A stretch of DNA of 64,000 nucleotides, taken from contig NZ_CP019646.1 of the NCBI RefSeq assembly GCF_001999965.1, forward strand, positions 3,162,001 through 3,226,000, written 5' to 3'. The position numbers and the translations under genes were made by a program. The stretch is from Limihaloglobus sulfuriphilus. GTDB lineage: Bacteria; Planctomycetota; Phycisphaerae; Sedimentisphaerales; Sedimentisphaeraceae. The notes under the pieces are model-generated. The model saw only the letters and a program-made list of their open reading frames with translations. It was not told the DNA's origin and did not search any database. This document shows, piece after piece, positions 10,086-48,043 of the stretch (position 1 is the first letter of the stretch; every line of letters begins with the position of its first letter).

Positions 10086-10193
10086 TTGTTCAATCCAGCC
10101 AGGTTTTTATTTGTTATATGGTTATCCGGCGAGTCAACATGCGGCCTGCCCTGCAAAATTTGCAATCCTATAGCCGCTAATATTATACGACAA

Positions 10194-10233
10194 ACAGGCT
10201 TCATGTCAATATAACAGGCTTCATGTCAATATA
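10194..10233. repeat. 20-bp perfect tandem duplication
   Basis: ACAGGCTTCATGTCAATATA occurs twice head to tail (10194-10213 and 10214-10233). This is a simple recent duplication in the gap between the CE15-type esterase and the PEP-CTERM gene. Confidence 0.9.
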
Positions 10234-10287
10234 ATCAGTTACAGGTTGAACGCATCGGGGTGTTTTGGTAAGAGTTCAAACTTTAGT

Positions 10288-30789: not shown

Positions 30790-33700
30790 GTGGCTAGTTT
30801 ACGTTTTTCCAGCAGAATGCGCTTTAGCAGATTGACGCTTATTTCGCTTGCAATTATCGGTACAATTATTTGCGGAAATCCTGCCGACGCGTTTTCTCAA
30901 ACCAATGAAGCAACAAAAAAAGCACTTCAGGATCAGATTGCCGTTGCCCGGCTTGCCTGTGAAGAGGGCATGCTCGAATCTTCTCAAGGCGTACTTGACA
31001 AGATAAGAAAAGATTTCGGCCAGGATCTGACAGACCAGGACGAGGCGGCTATCAGCGGTATCGAGGATTGTCTGGCCGCCGGCCGCAAGCTCAGGGCAGA
31101 CGCCCAGGCTTCGCTCGGCACCGCCCGGCAACTATACGATAACGGAAATTACGTAGATGCGTACAAACTTTCCTCCCAGCTGGCTGAGAACAAGTTTCTC
31201 CCTGTCGATGACAAGATGGCGGCTGCGAAGATAAAGTCTGCCTCGTATAAGGGTTATACCGAGTATCAGCAGGAAATGAAAGACCTCTTCGACAAAAGCA
31301 TCGAAGACTACAAGGCCGGTAATTACGAAACAGCCTTAAAGGGTTTCGAGACTGTCGATGAGAGCGGCGTAGAAGTTAGCCACTGGTTCAAAGATGCCGG
31401 CGATTACGCAGAGATGACTCAGGCACAAATGACAAAGTCTCAGGCAGAAGCCCAGGCCGATGCAGCTAAGCAGGCTAAAGCTGAAAAAGCTGCCGAAGAA
31501 AAAAAGGCCGCCGCGGAGAAAGCCGCAGCAGAAAAACAGGAAAAAGCTGCCAAAACGCAGCAGCCTGAAGTTGCCGTTGCTGTCCAAAACAACACGGCAG
31601 ACGAATCAGCTCAGGTGCAGCCTGACCAGAACCCCGACCAGGTATCAAACGAATCGATGGAGTCAGCGGCACCCCCAGCCGGCGGCTCTTCTTATATAGA
31701 TCAGATACAGCGGACGAGAAATGTGAAGCGCCAGTACACACAGGTTGTTGTAAATGACGCTATCGCAAAAGCTAATGAATTCATGGCACAGGGCGACTAC
31801 GCCGCGGCACGTGAATCACTTACCGCTGCCTATTCAAATATCAACAAGACCAAGATGGTTCTCGGCGAGCAGCTTTATGAGCAGTACAACACTCAGCTCA
31901 ACTCTATGCGAGATGAGATCGCGGACAAGGCCGAGGCCGCCGCGGTAAAAGATGCCCAGATGCGCCGCGAGGAGCAAAGCGTTCTTCAAAGCGAGATGCG
32001 CCAGAAGATGGAGCGTGAACGTCGGGCCGCGGTAGAGGAATACAAGTCAAACGCCCTTGAATTCCATAAAAAACAGCGTTACGAAGAGGCTCTTGCCCAG
32101 GTCAACGCCCTGCTGGCAATCGATCCGCTCAACGATTTCGGCCTTGCGATGAAGATGTCTCTTGAAGATACAATTTCATGGCGTGAGCAGAGCATGGTAC
32201 AGAAAACCAAGTACGAGCAGGAGATAAAGACCCTCATAGAAGCCGACCGTTCATCAATCCCCTGGTCAGACGATGTGCATTACCCGTCAAACTGGCTGGA
32301 AATCTCTAAGAAACGCGACGCCTTATTTACAGACGGCGAAAATCCCGAAGATGCCGCGATCAATAAACAGCTTGAAACGGTGATTGATCTGATGGAAATC
32401 ACTCAGGACACATCTTTTGAGGACGCTATAGAAATTATAAAGACATCTGTCGAACCGAATTTCAACATCGTTGTACTCTGGCGTGACCTCGAAGATAACG
32501 CGTTCATTGACCGCGACACGCCGGTTAATGTAACATTCAGCTCGCCGGTAAGTGCCAGCATGGCATTGAAGCTGCTTTTGGAAAGTGTATCCGGCGGATT
32601 TGCTGAGCTTGATTACGTTGTTAAAAACGGAATTATCCAGGTCGCGACAGTAGAATCACTTCCGGACAGGCTTCAGGTTGTCCGTTATGAAGTAGCCGAC
32701 CTGCTCGGTGAGAGGGCACTGTTCCAGTTTGAGATGGACACCTCGGACCTGGGTAACCAGGGAGGAGGCCGTTCAAGCGGCGGCGGCGGCGGTGGCAGCA
32801 GCAGCCGAAGAAGCTCATCCTCCAGTCAGGACGACGAAGACATCGACAGGACCGAGATGATCGAACGCTCGGCACTGCGTGTGCAGGAGCTGATGGACCT
32901 GATTCAGCAGAGTATTGACCCTATGAGCTGGTATGATGCCGGCGGACAGGCGACAATCTCCACATTCAATGACAAGACACTGGTTATAAGCCAGACTATC
33001 AAAAACCACAGCGAAGTGAGAAGACTCCTTAACGACCTTCGCGCCTCGCTCGGCCAGCAGGTTGCTCTGGAGACCAGATTCCTTATAGTAAGCCAGAACT
33101 TCCTTGAGGAAATCGGTGTAGATGTTGATTTTATAGTCAATGCCGGCGGAAAATGGGGTGATATCATCGTTGACCAGAACCACGCTTCAACTACCGGCGG
33201 CGGCCAGTCCACCGGCGTTCCCGGCAACCTCGCGGACAACTCCGCGGCGGCAATGATCAGCGGCGGTTACGGCTCTATACTTGATGACCTTCAGGTTCAA
33301 TTCCTGATAAACGCCACCCAGTCCCACCGTGATACAAAGAGTCTCAACGCTCCGCGTGTTGCAGTGCTCAGCGGTGAGTCGGCGGCTATCAGGGTAACAA
33401 CCGATAAATCCTACGTGGCAGACTACGATTTTGAAGATGTAACCACTGCTAACAGCGATTTTAACCGTGTTATCGCCGACCCTGAGATCAGCACGATTCA
33501 GGACGGTGTGATACTTAACGTTACCCCGACGATATCCATGGACAAGAAGTATGTCCTTCTGCGTATCACAACTTCTTTCACAACAACGAGTTTCAGCCAG
33601 TTTGAAGTACCTTCCGGCGGCGAGACAAACGATTATTTCCCGATTCAGCTGCCCGAGTCTGAAATCGCAGAGGTTCGTACCCGTGTCAGCGTGCCTGATT

Positions 33701-33918
33701 CAGGTACACTGCTTATCGGCGGCCAGAAGCTCACCGGTGAAGTTGAGCTGCAGAGCGGCGTGCCGGTTCTGAGCAAGGTTCCCGGGCTGGGAAGGCTCTT
33801 TGAAAACAGGGCCAAGACCAAAGATACATACGTTCTGCTGATACTGGTCAAGCCGACAATTCTGCTTCAGGATGAACTTGAGGCGGAGGCTGTAGCAGGT
33901 ATGCAGACAAATTACTGA
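30790..33918 (+). CDS. Secretin (type II/IV pilus secretion outer-membrane channel)
   Basis: An outer-membrane channel protein, 1042 residues, GTG start behind GGAGG. Signal peptide to about residue 35. Then TPR-like helices, an Ala/Lys/Glu-rich segment (about 215-255), a second helical region, N-domain-like beta-alpha units (FNIVVLWRDLED...), a Gly/Ser-rich loop (about 655-680), and the secretin domain from about 753. That domain has VALETRFLIVSQNFLEEIGV, LNAPRVAVLSGESA and the hallmark VPVLSKVPGLGRLFENR. The long N-terminal TPR fusion is typical of planctomycetal secretins. No GspE/F or Pil genes are adjacent. The following gene encodes a huge exoprotein. Confidence 0.9.
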   Translation: MASLRFSSRMRFSRLTLISLAIIGTIICGNPADAFSQTNEATKKALQDQIAVARLACEEGMLESSQGVLDKIRKDFGQDLTDQDEAAISGIEDCLAAGRKLRADAQASLGTARQLYDNGNYVDAYKLSSQLAENKFLPVDDKMAAAKIKSASYKGYTEYQQEMKDLFDKSIEDYKAGNYETALKGFETVDESGVEVSHWFKDAGDYAEMTQAQMTKSQAEAQADAAKQAKAEKAAEEKKAAAEKAAAEKQEKAAKTQQPEVAVAVQNNTADESAQVQPDQNPDQVSNESMESAAPPAGGSSYIDQIQRTRNVKRQYTQVVVNDAIAKANEFMAQGDYAAARESLTAAYSNINKTKMVLGEQLYEQYNTQLNSMRDEIADKAEAAAVKDAQMRREEQSVLQSEMRQKMERERRAAVEEYKSNALEFHKKQRYEEALAQVNALLAIDPLNDFGLAMKMSLEDTISWREQSMVQKTKYEQEIKTLIEADRSSIPWSDDVHYPSNWLEISKKRDALFTDGENPEDAAINKQLETVIDLMEITQDTSFEDAIEIIKTSVEPNFNIVVLWRDLEDNAFIDRDTPVNVTFSSPVSASMALKLLLESVSGGFAELDYVVKNGIIQVATVESLPDRLQVVRYEVADLLGERALFQFEMDTSDLGNQGGGRSSGGGGGGSSSRRSSSSSQDDEDIDRTEMIERSALRVQELMDLIQQSIDPMSWYDAGGQATISTFNDKTLVISQTIKNHSEVRRLLNDLRASLGQQVALETRFLIVSQNFLEEIGVDVDFIVNAGGKWGDIIVDQNHASTTGGGQSTGVPGNLADNSAAAMISGGYGSILDDLQVQFLINATQSHRDTKSLNAPRVAVLSGESAAIRVTTDKSYVADYDFEDVTTANSDFNRVIADPEISTIQDGVILNVTPTISMDKKYVLLRITTSFTTTSFSQFEVPSGGETNDYFPIQLPESEIAEVRTRVSVPDSGTLLIGGQKLTGEVELQSGVPVLSKVPGLGRLFENRAKTKDTYVLLILVKPTILLQDELEAEAVAGMQTNY

Positions 33919-33949
33919 TCCAATTTTAAACAATTTAATATAACAACGG

Positions 33950-33979
33950 GTACAGGGCGTGAATTTTTTCGCCCTGTAC
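33950..33979. terminator. Hairpin downstream of the secretin gene
   Basis: GTACAGGGCG (33950-33959) pairs with CGCCCTGTAC (33970-33979) around a T-rich loop. There is no T tract after it, so it is a possible but not classical terminator. A TTGACA at 34018-34023 could serve the next gene, but no good -10 box is in place. Confidence 0.45.
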
Positions 33980-34179
33980 TCGTATAAACAGATTCAGGCG
34001 GGTGAGGCAGATGTTTATTGACAGAAAATAATAAACTTACATGCAAACCCGTGTCGCGGCGGCTTCGTATAAACAAAATTGCCGTCAAAGCTAAATAACA
34101 CAGGCTTAATAAGATATTGAAATTATCTAAATATATATTAGAAGATATTAAAGCAATTATTCCAGGAGAAATAACAGTT

Positions 34180-37100
34180 ATGCGTTTATTCAAGTATTTT
34201 TCTCTGCTACTGCTAACGGCGGCATGTCTCCAGGCAAAGGTTCTTCAGGTTCCAACAACTCTTTATCCCGATATCCCCGACGCGGTAGCCGCGGCGGCAC
34301 CCGGCGATACTATCCTGATATCACCCAAGGGCGACGGCTCGGATTACGGCCCTTATGCGATTTCTCTGGGCGATGTTAGCCTGCCTGATGTGGCAGCACG
34401 CGAGAATGCGCCCGTGGTTACTATGTATGATGGACTTTCCGGTATTCTTATTGACAAGAACCTTACGATAGAGGGCCTGGGTGAAGTTGTTATAGATTGC
34501 GGCGAAATGGGCCGCGCTTTCACCATCGACGGCTCGGCTGCAGGCGGAATAACTGTAAACATTACAAATATTAAGATTCAAAACACCAGCTATGCCCCGG
34601 TACATGAGTGGATTGATGAGGAGGGCGAAATCCTCGGCCAGAGCTTTATCGCACAGCCAATGTCTGATGGCACCCCTATATTTGTCGCCGGTCAGCTGAT
34701 AGAGGGAGTTGACCCCGACACCGGCGAAGGTACAGGTGAGTTTACCTATGAGCTTTATGAAGTAGATTCATTCCCGGTTCCAGACCCTGATACCGGTGAC
34801 GTTGATTTCGAGGCAGGCTGCGCCTACGGCGGTGCCATAGGTATAAACTCTGCGGAAGTGCACATCAGCGACTGTGAATTTGACAATTGTGAAGTTACCG
34901 GCGCCCGCGGTTCACAGGGTATTATGGGCAGTTATTATGACATGGAAAATGACAGGGTTGCACTTCGTGATGCCGACGGCAACGGATTTGACGGCGGCGA
35001 AGGCGGAAATGCTTTCGGCGACGGCTACGGCGGAGCTATCGGCTGTCAGAACGGCTCATGGCTGTTCGTTGACAATACCATCTTTTCAAACTGTGCCGCG
35101 GTTGGAGCCATCGGCGGCGACGGCGGCCCCGGCAGTAACGCCGCAGGCAACGCAGATGACGGCTGGAACGGCAACGCCAGCAACGGCGGTGACGCCGGCA
35201 ATCCCACAGGTGCAGGTAACGGCGGAGCTGTGTATCTTGACCCGACCAGTCAGTCAGAATTTACCTCAAGTGAGCTTTTCGCCAACGAATGCCAGTTAGG
35301 CCAACCCGGCACAGGCGGGGCAACCGGCGGCGGTGATGTCAGCGAGGATAATCCGGTTTTCCCCGGCTCCAGCGGCAGCGGATTTGTCTTTTATTACAGA
35401 TGCTACGGCGGAGCGTTCTTCGCGGACAGTGAAATTGATGAGGGCGGGATGCTGTTAAACGCCGCGTGGCCCAGCTTCGTTGATACGCAGTTCAAAGCCA
35501 ACGAATCTCCATATTACGGCGGTGCGATCTACGCGGGCCATTATGTAGAGCTTGTAATAAGCCAATCTGACCCTTCAATAGCGACATTTGACAATAATAC
35601 CGCCAGACAGGGCGGTGCGATCTTCCTGCACGGCGAAAACGTTCTGGATGTAAGTGACTGTTATTTCAGCTCTAACAATGCCAATAGCGGTTATGGCGGT
35701 GCTGTATATAGCGGTGATCCAAGCACTGGTGATGATAACATAACAGCGACATTCAACCGGACAACATTCTCCCGAAACGGCGCGTTGTTCGGCGGTGCTG
35801 TATTTACAAATATGGCAGCCTCAGTTGATTACACACAGTGTGTCTTCAGCTCGAACACGGCTCTTAGTGTATCAGCCGTTGACCCGACACAAACAACCTC
35901 CCACGGCGGTGCGCTGAATATCAAGGGTAATGTAAACATCAGCGATTGTGTGATGACAAACAACATCGCCGGCGGCGGTAACGGCGGTGCAATCCACGCC
36001 CTGCAATGGAGCGGAACACTGACCAACTGCCTTATAAAAGACAACCAGGCACTTTCCGGCGGCGGTATCTACTCTATGAACTCCGCGGGGCTGTATTTTA
36101 ATAATTGTGATTTCCATACCAACTTCGCTAACGCTGTCGCCGGGCAGGGCGGAGGTATGGCTATATTCGACAGCAGCGATGACGGCTCCGGAGGCGATAC
36201 GACAGTATCGATACGCCACAGTGAGTTTACAGCAAACACAGGTTCCGGCAACGGCTCCAAAGGCGGCGGCCTCTATATTTCCACCTGCGACAACGTTGAG
36301 ATTTTCAACACGCTTGTAAACAACAACACAGCCGGACTCCACGGCGGAGGAATAGGCCTGACCTATGTTACAGCGACTTTGGGCAATCTAACCATTGATG
36401 GAAACGAATTGAGCAAAATTTCACAGCTCCCCCTCAATGGCGGCGCCTCTACTTCGGCAAATGACGATGACGACAGCGGCAGCGGGCTCTACATAGAATA
36501 TCTCTGTGATGTTCAGCTGCAAAACAGTATTGTTTCAAATAATGCGGGCATAAGCGTTTACCTTTATGACGCGGACAGCTCGTTCTATTCAAATAATAAC
36601 ATGTATTACATGTATCCTGTCGGTGAATACGAAGGATATGTTTACGACGCCATCAGCCTGCTCAAGACTGACGACGAGATAGACTCTCTGCCCGGCAGCG
36701 GCGGCAACTTAACTGACAATCCCAGGTTTACTTCCGGGCCGCTGGGGTATTATTACCTCTCGTCAAACAGCAGGGCGATAGATGCAGGTAATGACACTTT
36801 CATAAATGTATTCGGTGCCGACGCTCCGACTTACGAAGGTGATGAGGAAATTGTTGATCTTGGATATCACTATCCGGCTGAGGGCTCTGTTCCTCAGTAC
36901 ACGCTGACTATCAATCAGGTTGAAAATGCGATCATTACTCCTGTGCCGAATAAACCCACTTATTTCTCCGGCGAGCTTGTAGAGTTAAATGTAACTCTCG
37001 AGACGGGCTGGCGCGTACGTAACTGGCTCGGTACAATCAACGATACTTCAAACCGCAAGACCAACTATGTCCTGATGAACACGGACAAAACGGTTTCTGT

Positions 37101-40100
37101 TGTTATTGAGAGACCGGTTATCAGGCACGTACCAGCGGAATACCCCGTTTTCAGGGCCGCACTAAAGGCATCTGATGACTATGATATTATCATGGTCGCA
37201 CAGGGTACCCATTATATCGAAGAACGGTATGTAATTGACAGAGAATTAGTTATAACATCTACCAATCCGGACAACCCGGAGGTGGTAGCCGGTACGGTTT
37301 TCGTTCCCAACCAGCCCCAAGGTACAACTCGCCGCGGTGCGTTTGATTTCTACAACGTAAGCCGGGACACTGTTTTCCAGGGCTTTACTGTTCGAAACTT
37401 CCAGTTTTACGGTACAACTCCTGACCACAGAACAAGTGATGTTGACGGTGAGGATGGCGGCGACGGCAGCGGCGCGGCAGGCGGAGCGTTTACCATGCAG
37501 TTGGCATCACCTCAGGTGAAAAATACAGTATTTGAAAATTGCGGCGTCACAGGCGGCGACGGCCAGAACGGCGAATCAGGTATTGAAGAACACCCAAACG
37601 GCGGTGAAGGCGGCTGGGCCGGCCCGGCATACGGCGGGGCGGTATTTATGTACGCTAACTGCTCGCCGCGTTTTGAGAACTGCTCTTTTGCAGACTGTTA
37701 TGTGCAAGGCGGCAACGGCGGCAACGGCGGAGCAGGCTGGGTCAGCAACGGCCGACGCGTCGGCGCAGGCGGACTTGGCGGCAGCTGGGGAGATTATGAC
37801 GATTACGGGTACCCTGACGATATGGACCACGACGTTGGCGCCAGATGGGAAAATCAGCCTTCCGGTATTTATTTTGCTCCCAACAGCTGGTACGAAAACC
37901 CTGAAATGTATAACTGGCGTGACCGTGCCGGCAAGGGCGGAGCTGTGTTTATCAGCAACGGCAGCAACCCTGAATTCGACAACTGTACTTTTGAAAATAA
38001 TAACGCAACAAGTGGTTTGACAGGAGTTACCGCACTGGGGCCTGGAGACAGCCAGGCACGCCCGACACAGGCTTACCGGATAGAGGCCTTTGGCGGAGCT
38101 GTTTACGCGGAAACCAACTCCAAACCGAGTTTCATTGAATGTCAGTTCGATAACAATACAACAAATAAAGATTTCCCCGAAGGCAACTACCATGAGTATG
38201 TCAGCCGCGGCGGCGCATTGTATTTCGAGGACGGCTGTGTTCCGCTGATGGACGGCTGTGTCCTCTCGGGCAATGATTCATGTCTCGGCGGCGGTGTTTA
38301 TACTGAGGACAGCGAGCTTGTGCTGATTGACAGCAGTTTCGTCAATAATACAGCATACATCGGCGGCGGCCTGGTGAACAGCCGCGGCGCGACAGATATA
38401 TTCTGGAGCTCTTTCGACAGCAATCACGCTATGTTTGATCCGCCCTCGGCCCAAACTGGAGATGACGACGAAGTGACAGAAGATTCCGACCTGTTCGCAG
38501 GCAACGGCGGCTCCGGCGGCGGCATCTACAACTGGGAAGCTGATATGGAGGTTATCGGCACGCAGCTTCTCGGTAATGAGGCCGGTGCTTCTGGAGGAGG
38601 CTTCTTCTCCGGCGGCGGCGGTTCACCAATACTGCAGAACGTCCTTGTTGCCAGAAACAATGCCGGCAGCAGCGGCGGCGGATTATCGCTTAATCATAAT
38701 ACAACAGCTCAGATGTTTAATCTGACCGTTGCGGACAACTCGGTAACTTCTACCGTTTACGAAGACTACTACGGCGGCGGTTTGTATCTGGGTTATGAAT
38801 CGACCGCTGATGTAAAGGATAGTATATTCTGGGGCAACCAGGCCTCTACGCAGTACGGACAGCAGATAGCTGTAGGGCTGAGCAATGAATTTATTGTCAG
38901 TCCGTCAATCCTGACTATCAGCAATTCGATAGTAGAAGCCGGTCAGGGCGGTGTTTATACGGACATCGGCGACCCTGTCAGCTCCGGGGATGATTCAATT
39001 CTCATCTGGGATGAGGCGACGATGCTGCCCTCGGCGGCGGTTCCAAACGCTCAGCCGCTGTTTACCTCCGGAGAGCTTGGAGACTATTACCTATCCCGCG
39101 ACGGTATGCAGTACGAGGATTATCCCGTACAGACCGGCACAAGCCCCGCGATCGATATCGGCAGCAGAGGCTTCTTTGATGCCGAACTGTACCGCTACTC
39201 AAACAGAACAGATCACCTGCTTGATACCAATGTTGTTGACGCAGGATTCTATTACACGATTGAAACCGATATTAAAGGTGATATCAACTACGACGGGCTT
39301 CTTAGTCTCTCGGATATTCTGGAATTATCACGCTTGTGGCTTGAAGAGGGCTGCGTTTCACCGCTGTGGTGTTATGACCGTGATGTAAACCAGGACGGCT
39401 ATGTCGATTACTTTGACTGGGTGACAGTCGCCGCTTCTATCGGCGGCAGTGACACAGAGGCGCCGATGCCCAACCCGATGGCGTGGATACAGCCTCCGTT
39501 CTCGCTTGGCGGCGATGCCGTCGAGATGGAATGTGTAGAAGCTCTTGATAACGCTACCGCGGTTGAGTACTACTTCGAGTGTGTAAACGCACCGGAGTTC
39601 AGCAGCGGCTGGGTAGAAGAAACTGTATATACAGTTACCGGCCTGCCGCTCGGTGAGATTATGAGTTTCCGTGTTCGCGCACGTGATTTCAACGGCAACG
39701 AGACGGCAAACTCGACAGTGGCATACCTGACAGTAGGTGCCGACCGGACACCGCCGACACCAAACCCGCTGACCTGGCTGCTTGAGCCGGTTTCCAGCTC
39801 CGCGACAAGCGTGATGATGACAACCGTCGAGGCTCGCGATTCCAGCGGTTATGTTGAATACCAGTTTGAATGTCTCGAAGAGCCTGATTTCAACAGCTCT
39901 TGGATACAGGTAAACAGCTACCAGTTCACAGAGCTGGAAGAAGGCCAGACTTATACATTCCGCGCCCGCGCACGCGATGCGTTCGGCAATGTTACAAACT
40001 ATACCAGCGAGGTAACGGTAATCGCCGGCGGCGATCCGGACAACGGCATACCGGCAGACGGAGCTCCTCCGATGCCCAACCCGCTGAACTGGCTATACGA

Positions 40101-42819
40101 TTCATTTATCAGCACGGATTCTTACGCGACTATCGTATCAGAGCTTGCATCTGATTTGAGCGGCTCGGTTGAATATTTCTTCGACTGCAAAGTTGATGAA
40201 GACGCTACTACCGGCTTAAGCCCGCATGACAGCGGCTGGATCGCCAGCAACGTCTTTACGCCGACAACTCTCGAAGAGGGCATGATATACAGCTACGTTG
40301 TACGTGCCCGTGACGCGTTCGGTAATGAGACACTGGATTCAGAGCTTGCCTACATATCGATAGGCGGCGACTCGGAAGCACCAACTCCTAACCCGCCGCT
40401 GTGGTCACTGGAGCCGGTTTCAGCTTCGGTATCATCAATTGTGATGAGCGCCGAAGAAGGCTACGACCCCAGCAACGTGCTCTACTTCTTTGAGTGCATG
40501 ACCGATTCAACGCTTGACAGCGGCTGGCAGCAAAACCGTTCCTATGCGGTCAACGGACTCGGACAGGGCCAGACCTACAGCTTCCGCTTCAAGATGCGAG
40601 ATGCATTCGGTAACGAGACAGAATACTCCAGCGAGAAATTCGCGACTGTCTCCGAAGACTTCGCGCCGCCTCTGCCCACACCGATGGAATGGCTCGAAGA
40701 GCCGTATCTGCTCGGCGAGAACAGGGCGGTTATGAGTGCGGTGTTTGCTACAGACAGCAGCAGTGCGGCACAGTACTACTTCGACTGTGTAGAAGATGAT
40801 GCCTTTGATTCGGGCTGGATATCTTCGAATATTTATTTTGTCAATATACAAAACGATGTTACGCTGACTTTCCGTGTCAAGGCACGCGATCTGAGTGAAA
40901 ACATGAACGAGACCGGCTTCTCAGAGGAAGCATCTGTTACCGGTTCGGCTGATTTCTATCCGCCGGCACCAGATCCTCTTCAGTGGGAGCAGGTTCCGGT
41001 CAGCGGCTCGCCGACATCTGTTCTGATGTCAACAGTCGAGGCGCGTGATTCCAGCGGCGAAGTTGAATACTATTTCGAGTGCGTAACAAACGAAGCTCTC
41101 GATTCGGGCTGGCAGAGCAGCAGGGTTTACTCGGTTGAGGATCTTGTAGAAGGCCAGACCTACGGTTTCCGTGCCCGCGCACGTGACAAGTACGGCAACA
41201 TGACCGCTTACACCAATATCGCTTTTGCTTCTCCGGGGCTTGACGAGCAGGCTCCGCTGCCCAATCCGCTTGGCTGGAGGTATGACCTGTTTGTTCGTAC
41301 CACCGCAAGTGCACTTATCGCGGCGGACTTCGCCTATGATGTCAACGGGCCGGTAGAGTACTACTTCGCATGTGTTGAGGATCCAAATCTCGATTCGGGC
41401 TGGACACTTGACAACCTCTACGAGGTTACAGATATTGATGTAGGCAGCATTTACCACTTTACAGTTGTCGCACGCGATGCACTGGGCAATACCGGCCAGG
41501 TATCAGAAGAGGCGATCGTTGTTATAGGTGATGATGTAACAGCCCCGACACCGGATCCGCTTGAATGGCTTGTTGAGCCGACATCAGCATCGAACAGCTC
41601 GATTGCGATGTCTGTATCAAAGGCAGATGACCCCAGCGGCGTTGAATACTTCTTCGAGTGTATCGATGATGAATCATACGACAGCGGCTGGATAGCAAAT
41701 CCGTTCTATGAAGTACGCGGTCTTGATTCGGGAGATACTCTCTCGTTCCGTGCCCGCGCACGCGACCTGTTCGGCAACATGACTGATTATACCCCGACAG
41801 TTGCCGCGACGGTAACCGGCGATCTGGCGGCACCGATGCCCAACCCGATGGAATGGTTCGAAGAACCGTATCTCCAGAATGACACCACGGTGAGCATGGC
41901 TGCCAAATACGCTCAGGACTCCAGCAGTCTGGTAGAGTACTACTTCGACTGCATCGAGGACGATGCGTTTGATTACGGCTGGATAGATGCTAACGTCTAT
42001 ACCGCTTACGATCTCATACTTGAGAGCAAATACACATTCCGTGTCAAGGCACGCGACGCTTTCGGCAACGAAACAGAGTGGTCTGACGAGGTCTCCGTAA
42101 TAGCAACTGATGATCTTGATCCGCCGCTGCCCGATCCGGCAGAGTGGTTCGAAGATCCAATTGTGGATATGGAAGGTCTGGTATCGATGGAGGCCGGCGA
42201 GGCAACCGACGATAACGGCCCGGTCGAATACCTCTTCGAGTGTGTAAACAATGAGCTCTTCAGCAGTGACTGGCAGAGCGAGACTCTCTATGAGATAGAA
42301 GGCGGGCTTACCGCCGGTATCCAGTATGAGTTCCGCTTCCGCGCCCGCGACAGGTACGGCAACATGACAGACTGGTCAGAGAGCCGTTTTGTAACCTATG
42401 TTATTGATAATGTCCCGCCGACTCCCGGGGAGATAATCTCCGCGGTAGATTCTGAGGGTATTGCTAATGAGTCCGGCAGGTATCATACGATTACCGCAAC
42501 GCTGGGCTCTGATAATAATACCCCGATCTATTACCAGCTGATCTGTGAAGATTTCGGCGGAGAGTATCCGGACGGCTTCAGCTCACCAATACTCCAGGAA
42601 GGCGAAAACTACTTCTACGATGACGGTTATGCTGATATGACGGTTACATTCACAGACGGCGGTGTAACCTTCCGGTTCAAGGTCCGCAGCACAGACCGAC
42701 CGATGCGGCTGTTCTATCACCTTGACACAATTGATGCCGGCGGCAACAGGGTTTCTTCCGAGACCGTTGCCACCCAGGAAGGCACAGTAGTGATTGAGGA
42801 AGGAACCGGCGAGGGCTGA
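34180..42819 (+). CDS. Giant beta-helix / dockerin / Fn3-like exoprotein
   Basis: 2879 residues. ATG 34180 is chosen: AGGAGA precedes it and it opens the signal peptide MRLFKYFSLLLLTAACLQA. Two right-handed beta-helix regions (about 80-900 and 1010-1700) show repeated GGAIY/GGGIY turns and FxxN-type strands, like pectate-lyase or Pmp folds. A dockerin-like pair of calcium loops (DINYDGLLSLSD, DVNQDGYVDYFD; DNA 39271-39430) sits in mid-protein. Ten Fn3-like repeats of ~98 residues and a divergent eleventh follow. There is no PEP-CTERM or LPXTG end. Probably a secreted adhesin or carbohydrate-binding scaffold; its position after the secretin suggests type II export (inference). Confidence 0.85.
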   Translation: MRLFKYFSLLLLTAACLQAKVLQVPTTLYPDIPDAVAAAAPGDTILISPKGDGSDYGPYAISLGDVSLPDVAARENAPVVTMYDGLSGILIDKNLTIEGLGEVVIDCGEMGRAFTIDGSAAGGITVNITNIKIQNTSYAPVHEWIDEEGEILGQSFIAQPMSDGTPIFVAGQLIEGVDPDTGEGTGEFTYELYEVDSFPVPDPDTGDVDFEAGCAYGGAIGINSAEVHISDCEFDNCEVTGARGSQGIMGSYYDMENDRVALRDADGNGFDGGEGGNAFGDGYGGAIGCQNGSWLFVDNTIFSNCAAVGAIGGDGGPGSNAAGNADDGWNGNASNGGDAGNPTGAGNGGAVYLDPTSQSEFTSSELFANECQLGQPGTGGATGGGDVSEDNPVFPGSSGSGFVFYYRCYGGAFFADSEIDEGGMLLNAAWPSFVDTQFKANESPYYGGAIYAGHYVELVISQSDPSIATFDNNTARQGGAIFLHGENVLDVSDCYFSSNNANSGYGGAVYSGDPSTGDDNITATFNRTTFSRNGALFGGAVFTNMAASVDYTQCVFSSNTALSVSAVDPTQTTSHGGALNIKGNVNISDCVMTNNIAGGGNGGAIHALQWSGTLTNCLIKDNQALSGGGIYSMNSAGLYFNNCDFHTNFANAVAGQGGGMAIFDSSDDGSGGDTTVSIRHSEFTANTGSGNGSKGGGLYISTCDNVEIFNTLVNNNTAGLHGGGIGLTYVTATLGNLTIDGNELSKISQLPLNGGASTSANDDDDSGSGLYIEYLCDVQLQNSIVSNNAGISVYLYDADSSFYSNNNMYYMYPVGEYEGYVYDAISLLKTDDEIDSLPGSGGNLTDNPRFTSGPLGYYYLSSNSRAIDAGNDTFINVFGADAPTYEGDEEIVDLGYHYPAEGSVPQYTLTINQVENAIITPVPNKPTYFSGELVELNVTLETGWRVRNWLGTINDTSNRKTNYVLMNTDKTVSVVIERPVIRHVPAEYPVFRAALKASDDYDIIMVAQGTHYIEERYVIDRELVITSTNPDNPEVVAGTVFVPNQPQGTTRRGAFDFYNVSRDTVFQGFTVRNFQFYGTTPDHRTSDVDGEDGGDGSGAAGGAFTMQLASPQVKNTVFENCGVTGGDGQNGESGIEEHPNGGEGGWAGPAYGGAVFMYANCSPRFENCSFADCYVQGGNGGNGGAGWVSNGRRVGAGGLGGSWGDYDDYGYPDDMDHDVGARWENQPSGIYFAPNSWYENPEMYNWRDRAGKGGAVFISNGSNPEFDNCTFENNNATSGLTGVTALGPGDSQARPTQAYRIEAFGGAVYAETNSKPSFIECQFDNNTTNKDFPEGNYHEYVSRGGALYFEDGCVPLMDGCVLSGNDSCLGGGVYTEDSELVLIDSSFVNNTAYIGGGLVNSRGATDIFWSSFDSNHAMFDPPSAQTGDDDEVTEDSDLFAGNGGSGGGIYNWEADMEVIGTQLLGNEAGASGGGFFSGGGGSPILQNVLVARNNAGSSGGGLSLNHNTTAQMFNLTVADNSVTSTVYEDYYGGGLYLGYESTADVKDSIFWGNQASTQYGQQIAVGLSNEFIVSPSILTISNSIVEAGQGGVYTDIGDPVSSGDDSILIWDEATMLPSAAVPNAQPLFTSGELGDYYLSRDGMQYEDYPVQTGTSPAIDIGSRGFFDAELYRYSNRTDHLLDTNVVDAGFYYTIETDIKGDINYDGLLSLSDILELSRLWLEEGCVSPLWCYDRDVNQDGYVDYFDWVTVAASIGGSDTEAPMPNPMAWIQPPFSLGGDAVEMECVEALDNATAVEYYFECVNAPEFSSGWVEETVYTVTGLPLGEIMSFRVRARDFNGNETANSTVAYLTVGADRTPPTPNPLTWLLEPVSSSATSVMMTTVEARDSSGYVEYQFECLEEPDFNSSWIQVNSYQFTELEEGQTYTFRARARDAFGNVTNYTSEVTVIAGGDPDNGIPADGAPPMPNPLNWLYDSFISTDSYATIVSELASDLSGSVEYFFDCKVDEDATTGLSPHDSGWIASNVFTPTTLEEGMIYSYVVRARDAFGNETLDSELAYISIGGDSEAPTPNPPLWSLEPVSASVSSIVMSAEEGYDPSNVLYFFECMTDSTLDSGWQQNRSYAVNGLGQGQTYSFRFKMRDAFGNETEYSSEKFATVSEDFAPPLPTPMEWLEEPYLLGENRAVMSAVFATDSSSAAQYYFDCVEDDAFDSGWISSNIYFVNIQNDVTLTFRVKARDLSENMNETGFSEEASVTGSADFYPPAPDPLQWEQVPVSGSPTSVLMSTVEARDSSGEVEYYFECVTNEALDSGWQSSRVYSVEDLVEGQTYGFRARARDKYGNMTAYTNIAFASPGLDEQAPLPNPLGWRYDLFVRTTASALIAADFAYDVNGPVEYYFACVEDPNLDSGWTLDNLYEVTDIDVGSIYHFTVVARDALGNTGQVSEEAIVVIGDDVTAPTPDPLEWLVEPTSASNSSIAMSVSKADDPSGVEYFFECIDDESYDSGWIANPFYEVRGLDSGDTLSFRARARDLFGNMTDYTPTVAATVTGDLAAPMPNPMEWFEEPYLQNDTTVSMAAKYAQDSSSLVEYYFDCIEDDAFDYGWIDANVYTAYDLILESKYTFRVKARDAFGNETEWSDEVSVIATDDLDPPLPDPAEWFEDPIVDMEGLVSMEAGEATDDNGPVEYLFECVNNELFSSDWQSETLYEIEGGLTAGIQYEFRFRARDRYGNMTDWSESRFVTYVIDNVPPTPGEIISAVDSEGIANESGRYHTITATLGSDNNTPIYYQLICEDFGGEYPDGFSSPILQEGENYFYDDGYADMTVTFTDGGVTFRFKVRSTDRPMRLFYHLDTIDAGGNRVSSETVATQEGTVVIEEGTGEG
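39451..42404 (+). repeat. Ten tandem ~295-base units encoding Fn3-like domains
   Basis: Each unit encodes the same pattern: an APxPNPxxW opening, a VEYYFECV strand, DSGW, and a RVRARDxFGNET ending. The average unit is 295 bases (98 residues). Words such as CGTGCCCGCGCACG recur nearly unchanged at DNA level, suggesting expansion by unequal exchange. Confidence 0.85.
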
Positions 42820-42851: not shown

Positions 42852-42885
42852 AAGGGGAGCTTGCCATCTAAGCTCCCCTTTTTTC
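42852..42885 (+). terminator. Rho-independent terminator
   Basis: AAGGGGAGCTT (42852-42862), 7-base loop, AAGCTCCCCTT (42870-42880), then a T run. A strong classical terminator 33 bases after the giant gene. Confidence 0.95.
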
Positions 42886-44111: not shown

Positions 44112-45425
44112 ATGCACGCACATATAAACTGCTTCTGCGGCGCTGCCGGCGATATGCTCAACGCCGCCCTTATTGACTGCGGACTCGAGGTAAAAGAGCT
44201 CGAAACCGCCCTTAAATCACTCAATCTGCCCGAATACCGCGGCATAAAGACCGAAAAAGTGATCCGATCAGGCATTTCAGCGGTAAAATTTACGCCGCTC
44301 TTCGACGAGCCGGACGAGACGCACCATGGACATCACCATAAACATGAGCATGACCATGAACACAAGCACAATCACGACCACCATGGACACGAACATCACG
44401 GCCATGACCACCATCATGAACATAACCACAGTCATGAAACGCACCATCATCACGCTCCGCACCGCAACCTGCCCGGCATCACGGCTATAATACAGGAATC
44501 TGAACTGCCCGAAAAGGTGAAAAAAGATGCCGTTGCAGTGTTTGAGCTGCTCGCCGCCGCCGAGGCAAAGGTGCACGGCAAGGGCATAAACGAGGTACAT
44601 TTCCATGAGGTCGGCGCGACAGACTCAATTCTTGACATTGTCGGCGTATGTTTCGCCATATATCGGCTGGGTATCCAAACCGTCTCGGCATATCCGATAA
44701 ACGTCGGCGGAGGCACCGTAAAATGCGCCCACGGCATCATGCCCGTACCTGCGCCGGCGACGCTGAACCTGCTCGAGGGTGTGCCGTTTGGTTCCGGGCC
44801 GGTTGAGAAGGAGCTGCTCACCCCAACCGCCGCGGCATTGCTCAGGCACTTTGTTACAGATTTTACACCCATGCCGGAGATAACCGCCAAAAAATCGGGC
44901 TACGGCGCGGGAACACTGGAATTTGACAATATCCCAAACACCACGCTGATTACCCTGGGCTCTGTCGGCGGGAAGTCACAAACGCCTACTGAAACAGTGT
45001 TTATGCTTGAGGCTGATATAGACGACGCGGCCGGAGAGATGATTGGCGATGCCGCGGAGAAACTGCGTGCCGCCGGAGCTCTCGATGTCCTTACAATACC
45101 GGTGTTTATGAAAGATTCACGCCCGGGAACCCGTCTTTCTGTGCTGGCAAAACCCCAAACAGCACAAAAGCTCGAGGCGATTATCTTTCAGTCAGGGATA
45201 ACTCTGGGTATCCGCCGGCAGAGTATAACCCGCTCAACCCTGCCGCGGGAAATCAAAACCGTTGAGACGCCCTATGGCAGTATAGATGTCAAAACAGCAG
45301 TTCATGGCGGTTTGCAAGTCTTTGCTAAACCAGAGTTTAAACAATGCGTTTCTGCCGCGGGCAAACACGGCGTTCCGGTCAAAATAGTCATCTCCGCCGC
45401 GATGGAGAATCTGCATAAAAAATGA
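44112..45425 (+). CDS. larC: Nickel-pincer cofactor nickel insertase LarC
   Basis: LarC inserts Ni into the pyridinium bisthiocarboxylate mononucleotide cofactor of lactate racemase and related LarA enzymes. 437 residues in one frame: it opens HAHINCFCGAAGDML, has a His-rich stretch at about 75-122 (around 30 His with Glu/Asp, presumably nickel storage), NEVHFHEVGATDSILD, and VHGGLQVFAKPEF near the end. In Lactiplantibacillus the gene needs a programmed frameshift; here none is needed. larB, larE and larA are not in the window. Confidence 0.93.
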   Translation: MHAHINCFCGAAGDMLNAALIDCGLEVKELETALKSLNLPEYRGIKTEKVIRSGISAVKFTPLFDEPDETHHGHHHKHEHDHEHKHNHDHHGHEHHGHDHHHEHNHSHETHHHHAPHRNLPGITAIIQESELPEKVKKDAVAVFELLAAAEAKVHGKGINEVHFHEVGATDSILDIVGVCFAIYRLGIQTVSAYPINVGGGTVKCAHGIMPVPAPATLNLLEGVPFGSGPVEKELLTPTAAALLRHFVTDFTPMPEITAKKSGYGAGTLEFDNIPNTTLITLGSVGGKSQTPTETVFMLEADIDDAAGEMIGDAAEKLRAAGALDVLTIPVFMKDSRPGTRLSVLAKPQTAQKLEAIIFQSGITLGIRRQSITRSTLPREIKTVETPYGSIDVKTAVHGGLQVFAKPEFKQCVSAAGKHGVPVKIVISAAMENLHKK

Positions 45426-46706: not shown

Positions 46707-48043
46707 GGCTCCTCACACAAATTTGTGCATATTTTCAGGTTCAGGCAGCTTTCCAAGGCAGTGATATAAGGCTAACTGCAGCGTCGGGATTGTCCTGAAT
46801 CCATAACATCTTTTGACTATTGTTTTAACTTTATTGTTCATACCTTCGGTGACTCCATTGGTGACTCGGCATTTGAAATAATTTATGATACCTTGCTGAT
46901 GTTTTCTGAGCATCCAGGCAAAATCACGTAATGGTTCGAGCCTGCTGTGGGTGGCCCACCAGAACCACTTTGCAAGATATTTTTTGGCAGCTGCAGGGTA
47001 GCGGTAATCCCAAAAATCACGAAAGGATTCTTTCAATAAATAAGCCCTGTTGACTTTAAGATTCAGCTTCTCCAGATACCCCAGACGTGCACGCTGTTTG
47101 TCTGTAAGGTTTTCAGGATTCTTCAGCCAGATATATCGCGTTTTTTTAAGCAGTTCGGGGTTGTCTTTTTTGAGCGTGATAGCTTCCTGTTTGCGTACCT
47201 CATCGACAGCCTGATTCAAATGTTGTACGATATGAAATTTATCGAAAACCAGAACAACATCCTCGTCAACATGCTCTTTTACAACATCAATGTACGATTG
47301 CCACATATCACAGCAAACCGCCTTTAAACTGCCTTTTAGTGATTTTCCATGTTCTTTGAAAAACGCCTCCAGCGTCTCTTTTTTCCGGCCCTGGACGCTC
47401 CATAAAATGCGTTTTTCTTCCAGGTCGTACACCACCGTCATATACGTATGACCCTTGCGGCGGGATACTTCGTCAATGCCAATATAAATGACCTTTCCTG
47501 TATCCCTGTGTTTCATGCCGTAGTCAACTGCCTGCTTTACCGCAGACTGAACCGTATTCCAGCTGACATTAAACATCTGAGAAACCGTCTGCCAGGGCAG
47601 CAATTTCGCCATACTGCTCAAGGTCCAGACCAATCCGTTTGTCATACGTGATTTACCTGAGGTAAAGGGTATGTCCTCAACCCTCGGCCCACCGCATTTG
47701 GGACAGCTGACACGAACCGGACGGTAATGCAGCATCACTGGTATGCCCCATAACGGAACATGCTTAATCTGCCGTTGCGGAAGCCGGTCACGTTGCGGAG
47801 CGAGCGTCTGACAGGTGCCGCAAGGCAGCCGACGACGTTTGTGAACGTCTAAATAAAAGTTGAGCTGATTGTCACTATAATCGACTTTTACCACTTTATG
47901 TCTCTTGACTTTTAATGTCTTTTTTAGTATTCTTTTAAGCAGCATATGTTTTCCCTTGCTATAACATTGTTCTAAATCATCATTATAACAAGTGTTAACA
48001 TATGCTATATCAAATTTTTCTGCACAAATTTGTGTGAGGAGCC
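46707..48043 (-). mobile_element. Complete ISL3-family insertion sequence
   Basis: A 1337-bp element with perfect 23-bp terminal inverted repeats (46707-46729 starting GGCTCCTCACAC; 48021-48043 ending GTGAGGAGCC). The 8-bp target duplication AAAATATT is intact on both sides (46699-46706 and 48044-48051). One transposase gene fills it. Intact ends and duplication point to a recent insertion. Confidence 0.97.
46713..47945 (-). CDS. tnp: ISL3 family transposase
   Basis: DDE transposase of 410 residues. N-terminal zinc ribbon (CGTC, then CPKCGG), helix-turn-helix (QTVSQMFNVSWNTVQSAVKQ), and catalytic Asp in YIGIDEVSRRKGH, Asp in AVCCDMWQSY and Glu in VTNGVTEGMNNK. The last codons (MHKFV and stop) are encoded by the terminal inverted repeat itself. 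Intact and probably active. Confidence 0.95.
   Translation of the reverse strand: MLLKRILKKTLKVKRHKVVKVDYSDNQLNFYLDVHKRRRLPCGTCQTLAPQRDRLPQRQIKHVPLWGIPVMLHYRPVRVSCPKCGGPRVEDIPFTSGKSRMTNGLVWTLSSMAKLLPWQTVSQMFNVSWNTVQSAVKQAVDYGMKHRDTGKVIYIGIDEVSRRKGHTYMTVVYDLEEKRILWSVQGRKKETLEAFFKEHGKSLKGSLKAVCCDMWQSYIDVVKEHVDEDVVLVFDKFHIVQHLNQAVDEVRKQEAITLKKDNPELLKKTRYIWLKNPENLTDKQRARLGYLEKLNLKVNRAYLLKESFRDFWDYRYPAAAKKYLAKWFWWATHSRLEPLRDFAWMLRKHQQGIINYFKCRVTNGVTEGMNNKVKTIVKRCYGFRTIPTLQLALYHCLGKLPEPENMHKFV

Follow-up and report, generated by a model that had tools for sequence, protein, structure and literature searches.

A solo secretin gene and a giant beta-helix exoprotein gene kept as neighbours in Limihaloglobus sulfuriphilus and its relatives

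A very large beta-helix exoprotein and an outer-membrane channel are encoded side by side in two-partner secretion (TpsA/TpsB, type Vb). To our knowledge, no export route across the outer membrane has been established for the many giant proteins of planctomycetes. Planctomycete "giant genes", large genes that are mostly of surface type, are described as common in the phylum (PMC5177795), and the words secretin, dockerin and Phycisphaera do not occur in the main text of that description; Pmp-like motifs have already been published for a Phycisphaerae protein (PMC10715098). Here a stretch of 64,000 nucleotides (the window; positions 3162001-3226000 of the 3.87 Mb single-contig genome of Limihaloglobus sulfuriphilus) was analyzed, in which an earlier note, made from the sequence alone, had placed a secretin gene followed by the gene of a 2879-residue exoprotein. 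Both open reading frames were confirmed, the length of 2879 residues being that of the ATG reading of the second. In the literature searched on planctomycetes, Phycisphaerae or Sedimentisphaerales, no description of such a secretin-giant pairing was found. The features of the locus are as follows.

30790..33918, plus strand: solo secretin, 1042 aa, GTG start with an ATG at codon 10 (PF00263, profile matches, AlphaFold, fold matches)
33316..33864, plus strand: Pfam Secretin domain inside the secretin (PF00263, aa 843-1025)
33919..34179, plus strand: strongly structured intergenic region of 261 bases between the secretin stop and the ATG (folding z-score -5.1)
33946..33983, plus strand: hairpin just past the secretin stop, 14-bp stem and 10-base loop, read from the sequence, with pairing also predicted by folding
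34180..42819, plus strand: giant exoprotein, 2879 aa from ATG, in an ORF that opens at TTG 34117; N-terminal Sec-type signal peptide by eye
34246..36891, plus strand: beta-helix region 1 with Pmp-like GGAI/FxxN rungs (PF13229, motif counts; borders approximate, by eye)
36898..37098, plus strand: InlB-type B-repeat (Flg_new_2) between the helices (Pfam, aa 928-994), recurring in relatives
37129..39261, plus strand: beta-helix region 2 (PF13229 best stretch aa 1250-1422), main part shared with relatives; borders approximate, by eye
39274..39429, plus strand: dockerin type I module at the beta-helix/Fn3 junction, with two complete DxNxDGxxxxxD loops
39457..42408, plus strand: ten Fn3-like domains of about 97 aa each (pairwise identity 31-54%; AlphaFold and Foldseek for the first domains)
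42409..42816, plus strand: divergent C-terminal tail, Fn3-like by eye, with an acidic end and no recognized sorting motif
42852..42880, plus strand: intrinsic-terminator-like site past the exoprotein, 12-bp stem and T run (terminator scan)

The secretin contains a clear pore domain (83 bits against a Pfam cut-off of 27.5 for PF00263), ahead of which lie two long helical TPR-like arms (aa 34-246 and 302-488) and an N0/STN-like domain, so named by eye, at about aa 525-640, the pore part as a whole spanning about aa 690-1025. A profile search of solved structures returned PilQ, GspD and phage pIV, and a fold search with the pore part of the AlphaFold model (mean pLDDT 71 over the secretin) returned PilQ, GspD, InvG and pIV, the helical arms giving weak TPR-type matches. 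The NCBIfam scores lie under the curated cut-offs (116 bits against 250 for MshL, 76 against 284 for PilQ and 75 against 351 for GspD), and no ATPase, platform protein or pseudopilins were found adjoining the gene in a Pfam/NCBIfam scan of the neighbours, those of the secretin-giant pair in the window being rlmL-, fic-, trxB-, methyltransferase- and larC-like. Some relatives encode, just 5' of the secretin, a separate protein of about 360-390 aa that is kin to its N-terminal helical arm (e.g. L053:3042-4184). T2SS-like and pilus-like gene sets are present elsewhere in the L. sulfuriphilus genome, which has five other secretins, listed here with operon contents that were partly read by eye.

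L087: GspD, scoring over the family cut-off, in a T2SS-like operon
Own genome: PilQ-like secretin, with PilM alongside
Own genome: 1082-aa secretin, with GspE and pseudopilin-like genes
L090:8663-12570, minus strand: tandem pair of secretins of about 650 aa each; candidate lipoprotein signals were read by eye, and no apparatus genes were noticed alongside

The two beta-helix regions attributed earlier to the exoprotein are borne out by four PF13229 stretches (right-handed beta-helix, Pfam) and by the GGA[ILV] and FxxN motifs, which number 13 and 18 in the helix part against shuffled means of 0.5 and 5.7, with 0 of 1000 shuffles reaching either count; a sequence search of solved structures with the N-terminal 1440 aa found no match. 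Past the signal peptide the protein has no strongly hydrophobic stretch, and no anchor family was matched (Pfam/NCBIfam), in agreement with the suggestion that it lacks a wall or membrane anchor. The haemagglutination-activity/TPS domain is absent among its Pfam matches up to E 0.05, and a C-terminal autotransporter beta-barrel gave no Pfam match, the C-terminus being of Fn3 type.

The repeats proved to be ten in number, as had been counted, but far from near-identical and not alike at the DNA level: against a pairwise protein identity of 31-54%, their DNA identity is 43-63% (median 51%), and Tandem Repeats Finder called no array over the region. Near-identical repeats are thus ruled out, and the expansion must be old. 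Similarity is highest between domains lying four positions apart, at a mean of 48% compared with 37-42% for other spacings, a value attained in 0 of 5000 reorderings; an old duplication of a block of four domains is thereby indicated. Structure prediction, proposed earlier as a check, supports the Fn3 fold for the first domains, since an AlphaFold model that covers the junction and the first Fn3 domains has good confidence in the first two of these, which match Fn3 structures (Foldseek); for the dockerin part it places a helix after each loop at low confidence (pLDDT about 50-70).

The exoprotein has relatives at E<=1e-10 in 51 of the 59 genomes of its order, its own included, a count that takes any match, Fn3-only ones too. 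When its central 1084 aa were compared with 150 genomes of the class, 20 matched at E<=1e-30, all from its own order, and none of the 150 yielded a relative outside that order; judged by these searches, the giant family spans one planctomycete order, Sedimentisphaerales, the order being that suggested by the named relatives. For comparison, 53 giants, 41 of them complete, were collected as ORFs with at least four GG[AG][ILVFM] motifs from regions chosen around secretins or best matches, named loci recognized as genomes already included being left out. The complete giants range from 1112 to 10,557 aa. Length correlates with the number of GGA motifs at r 0.95 and with that of B-repeats at r 0.80; the large size variation thus comes from beta-helix/B-repeat cassettes, by which the giants have grown. 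The C-terminal Fn3 domains vary in number too: of the 41 complete giants, 20 have three, 10 have two, 7 have one and 3 have none, the window protein alone having ten. Their number, accordingly, is not fixed across distant relatives, and the expected variability in copy number is found between species (0-3 in the 40 others, 10 here), but slippage between strains is unlikely given how highly diverged the repeats are. Open frames of 10,565 and 9,915 codons occur among the relatives of the exoprotein (G018:C19 and G040:C135). An N-terminal subtilase-like domain, sometimes with two Fn3 domains after it, is present in 26 of the 53 giants and absent from the window protein; it was named by Pfam (PF00082) in one giant, scanned at L055:7039-9138.

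The pairing of secretin and giant is not due to chance. In a table of the window secretin and those of 80 further loci (81 in all), of which nine had too little downstream sequence to be classified, the giant lies directly downstream in 38 of the 72 classifiable loci, window included, and not in the other 34; adjacent here means the next ORF on the same strand, less than 500 bp away, that matches the giant or has at least four GG[AG][ILVFM] motifs, and one pair (L163) was entered on a weak match. Mapped onto a secretin tree of a quick kind, in which 15 rows fill under half of the columns, adjacency changes 2 times compared with a shuffled mean of 24, and 0 of 500 shuffles are as low. The named secretin relatives come from MAGs labelled Phycisphaerae, Sedimentisphaerales and similar, and the gap between the two genes in paired loci is usually <360 bp. 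The giant directly follows the secretin in 5 of 5 genomes of the window's own family, one of them split over two contigs, and in 12 of 13 genomes of family f7. These counts (families f1 and f7) combine the giant search, the secretin search and a reading of the neighbourhoods; in G052 the position of the secretin was taken from the secretin search, the neighbourhood display showing an overlapping antisense ORF, and in G001 the pair rests on a partial 637-aa ORF at a contig end. In four genomes of family f6 (G025, G036, G044, G051) the two genes are near each other and not adjacent, and in the f2 genomes read (G005, G011, G015, G019) they are on different contigs; in f2 and part of f6, with the giant on another contig, an aroC-like or other gene comes directly after the secretin. 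Several loci have the frame tsaB< secretin> giant> aroC<, which marks the place as inherited, and the same frame is seen elsewhere without the giant (TsaB and AroC were named from one example each, and elsewhere by length and place). The window, with trxB upstream and an O-methyltransferase and larC downstream, has lost this frame.

A relative of the secretin is found at E<=1e-5 in 59 of 59 genomes of the order, whether the giant is present or absent, and the secretin is more widespread, and probably older, than the giant. This breadth, with the 34 loci that have no adjacent giant, argues against a dedicated channel, so that of the dedicated secreted scaffold proposed earlier the link with the secretin is upheld by gene order and clustering on the tree, and its dedicated character is not; a scaffold of cellulosome type also fails, as discussed below. 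In view of the conserved pairing, the pore may assist in exporting or assembling the giant.

The 261-base gap between the genes folds far more stably than shuffled sequences and contains several further stems besides the 14-bp hairpin, for which terminator, attenuator and stability element are candidate roles; the terminator scan, with a loop limit of 8, did not call this hairpin, whose loop is 10. Secretin and giant may thus be under separate control. A riboswitch or other known RNA was rejected, since an Rfam search of the gap gave chance-level matches and no family above threshold. The gap sequence is unique in its own genome, and a 16-base piece of it, tried as a genome-wide motif, was discarded with 4 matches at <=2 mismatches compared with 10 for a reversed control. 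A AAAAGTGTAAC-like stretch, by eye perhaps a promoter element, recurs upstream of the giant in five loci (L120, L125, L148, L154, L158). Elsewhere in the window, an 18-base repeat is present twice within the LarC-like gene (44403-44438; a histidine-rich stretch by eye), an ISL3-family transposase gene (46713-47945, minus strand) lies about 4 kb downstream of the pair, and 10193-10234 is a perfect tandem repeat of 2.1 copies of a 20-base unit.

The module between beta-helix and Fn3 tail had been read as an internal dockerin. This reading holds in that both calcium loops are intact and a profile of the junction matches structurally solved cellulosomal dockerins (4fl4, 2y3n, 1daq) at E about 1e-5 to 1e-6, although the score in the Pfam scan is under the cut-off (PF00404, aa 1720-1771, 17.2 bits against 22.9); a second search gave 22.5 bits for the module alone and 30.6 together with its neighbours. 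Dockerins in this genome (26 matches in 25 ORFs) are usually terminal, as assumed earlier, to the extent that 16 of 26 end <=60 residues from the C-terminus and 2 more are the first of a near-end pair, but 8 are truly internal, that of the exoprotein among them. A profile built from 23 other dockerins of the same genome was applied to the complete giants: 38 of them have a C-terminal Fn3 tail, and in 36 of these a dockerin-like module stands immediately ahead of it. In the alignment of the junction module across relatives the loop residues are conserved, with cysteines in most relatives. The module is an old, fixed part of the giant; it looks mid-chain here because the Fn3 tail behind the usual junction has grown to ten domains (1-3 in others), so that its position is no oddity.

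Cohesins, in turn, are scarce. A single cohesin ORF was found in the genome, encoding a 2069-aa protein (L091:8223-14432, minus strand) with a subtilase domain, TIG, two cohesins and a dockerin. This ORF, with its internal dockerin between two cohesins, agrees with the account of L. sulfuriphilus in a survey that lists for the species one Coh2-Doc1-Coh1 protein and 13 dockerin fusions (PMC11557425), and in which conventional cellulosomes are deemed unlikely for it. Among the 59 genomes of the order, 3 have cohesins, own included, which makes a cellulosome-like scaffold unlikely; and since cohesin is rare and the junction module is kept, no cohesin of that family can be required for the conserved role of the module. 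For most species, the module is more probably a calcium-dependent cap or linker than a docking device, and in L. sulfuriphilus itself docking of the giant on the cohesin-dockerin-cohesin protein is possible. The module is also an example of a dockerin acting as a constant structural element within giant exported proteins, in an order where cohesins are hardly ever detected.

The reading preferred here, to which we assign a probability of about 0.5, is that the giant is an order-specific surface protein and that the solo secretin, inherited together with it, lets it out through the outer membrane or takes part in its assembly. The giant would be exported by Sec as an extracellular or surface protein, its rod formed by cassettes of Pmp-like beta-helix and InlB-type B-repeat and followed by the conserved calcium-binding dockerin-type module and an Fn3 tail, probably serving binding or adhesion at the cell surface. 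After crossing the periplasm it would leave through the secretin or be assembled on it, the long helical periplasmic arms of the secretin could hold the substrate, and the type II/type IV-pilus-like sets at other places in the genome would lend energy or a pseudopilus. Of this picture, the anatomy, the order-wide family, the conserved pairing and junction module and the growth by cassettes are results of the analysis, and surface location, adhesion, export through this secretin and the borrowed motor are inferences. A bolder version is considered unlikely: the pair would be a secretin-based counterpart of two-partner secretion, confined to one planctomycete order, in which a solo secretin with long helical arms is reserved as the exit for a single giant beta-helix protein, as long as about 10,500 residues, and possibly needs no motor or borrows one.

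That the two genes are neighbours without partnership is possible, if doubtful: the secretin would have a general, older job (e.g. in a pilus or another export line), the giant would exit via the main type II system, and gene order would be kept for co-regulation or by inheritance alone. The wider occurrence of the secretin (59 of 59 genomes against 51 of 59 for the giant), the lack of an adjacent giant at 34 of 72 loci, the presence of a GspD over its family cut-off in a T2SS-like operon (L087) and the structured gap all accord with this explanation, but the pairing has been retained though the secretins have diverged to about 30-45% identity, and the genes further out differ in several paired loci. 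It is quite improbable that the giant is instead a dockerin-borne component, docked on the cohesin-dockerin-cohesin protein in an extracellular complex. The intact dockerin loops, the partner with its two cohesins, dockerin and subtilase domain, and the 13 dockerin fusions reported beside it (PMC11557425) would suit such a complex; the restriction of cohesins to 3 of 59 genomes, set against a junction module retained by 36 of 38 complete tailed giants, does not, nor does the judgement of the same survey on conventional cellulosomes in this species. Hardly credible is a phase-variable repeat protein whose Fn3 number shifts between strains by slippage or recombination and so alters surface properties: the ten domains here against 0-3 elsewhere and the duplicated four-domain block are what such a process could leave, but at 43-63% DNA identity and with no tandem array the expansion is an old one.

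If the partnership of secretin and giant is real, exit through a secretin would count as a further route to the surface for very large beta-helix proteins, and the conserved pair of putative channel and substrate genes offers a direct genetic handle on giant export in an environmental order. Compared with described systems, the exoprotein gene resembles the planctomycete "giant genes", as characterized in the main text of PMC5177795, in being large and putatively of surface type. Like chlamydial Pmp proteins, the giant has GGA[ILV]/FxxN beta-helix rungs, and a fragment from one of its relatives matches PF02415 over the cut-off; unlike them, it has a dockerin module and an Fn3 tail in place of an autotransporter barrel, with a secretin as a separate gene. 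The secretin shares its pore domain and fold with the T2SS and T4P secretins GspD, PilQ and MshL, but differs from them in falling under their NCBIfam cut-offs, in its long helical N-terminal arms and in having no adjoining ATPase, platform or pseudopilin genes. The junction module has the two-loop build of cellulosomal dockerins, from which it is set apart by its internal position at the helix/Fn3 junction, by cysteines in most relatives and by the near absence of cohesins in the order. As in two-partner secretion, the gene of a candidate channel adjoins that of a giant beta-helix exoprotein; unlike in that system, the candidate is a secretin and not an Omp85/POTRA barrel (TpsB), and the giant, for which export is here a prediction, has no N-terminal haemagglutination-activity/TPS domain. 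Since Omp85 channel and TPS domain are both absent, the pair would work at most like two-partner secretion and not as a member of it, and two-partner secretion may be regarded as its closest analogy.
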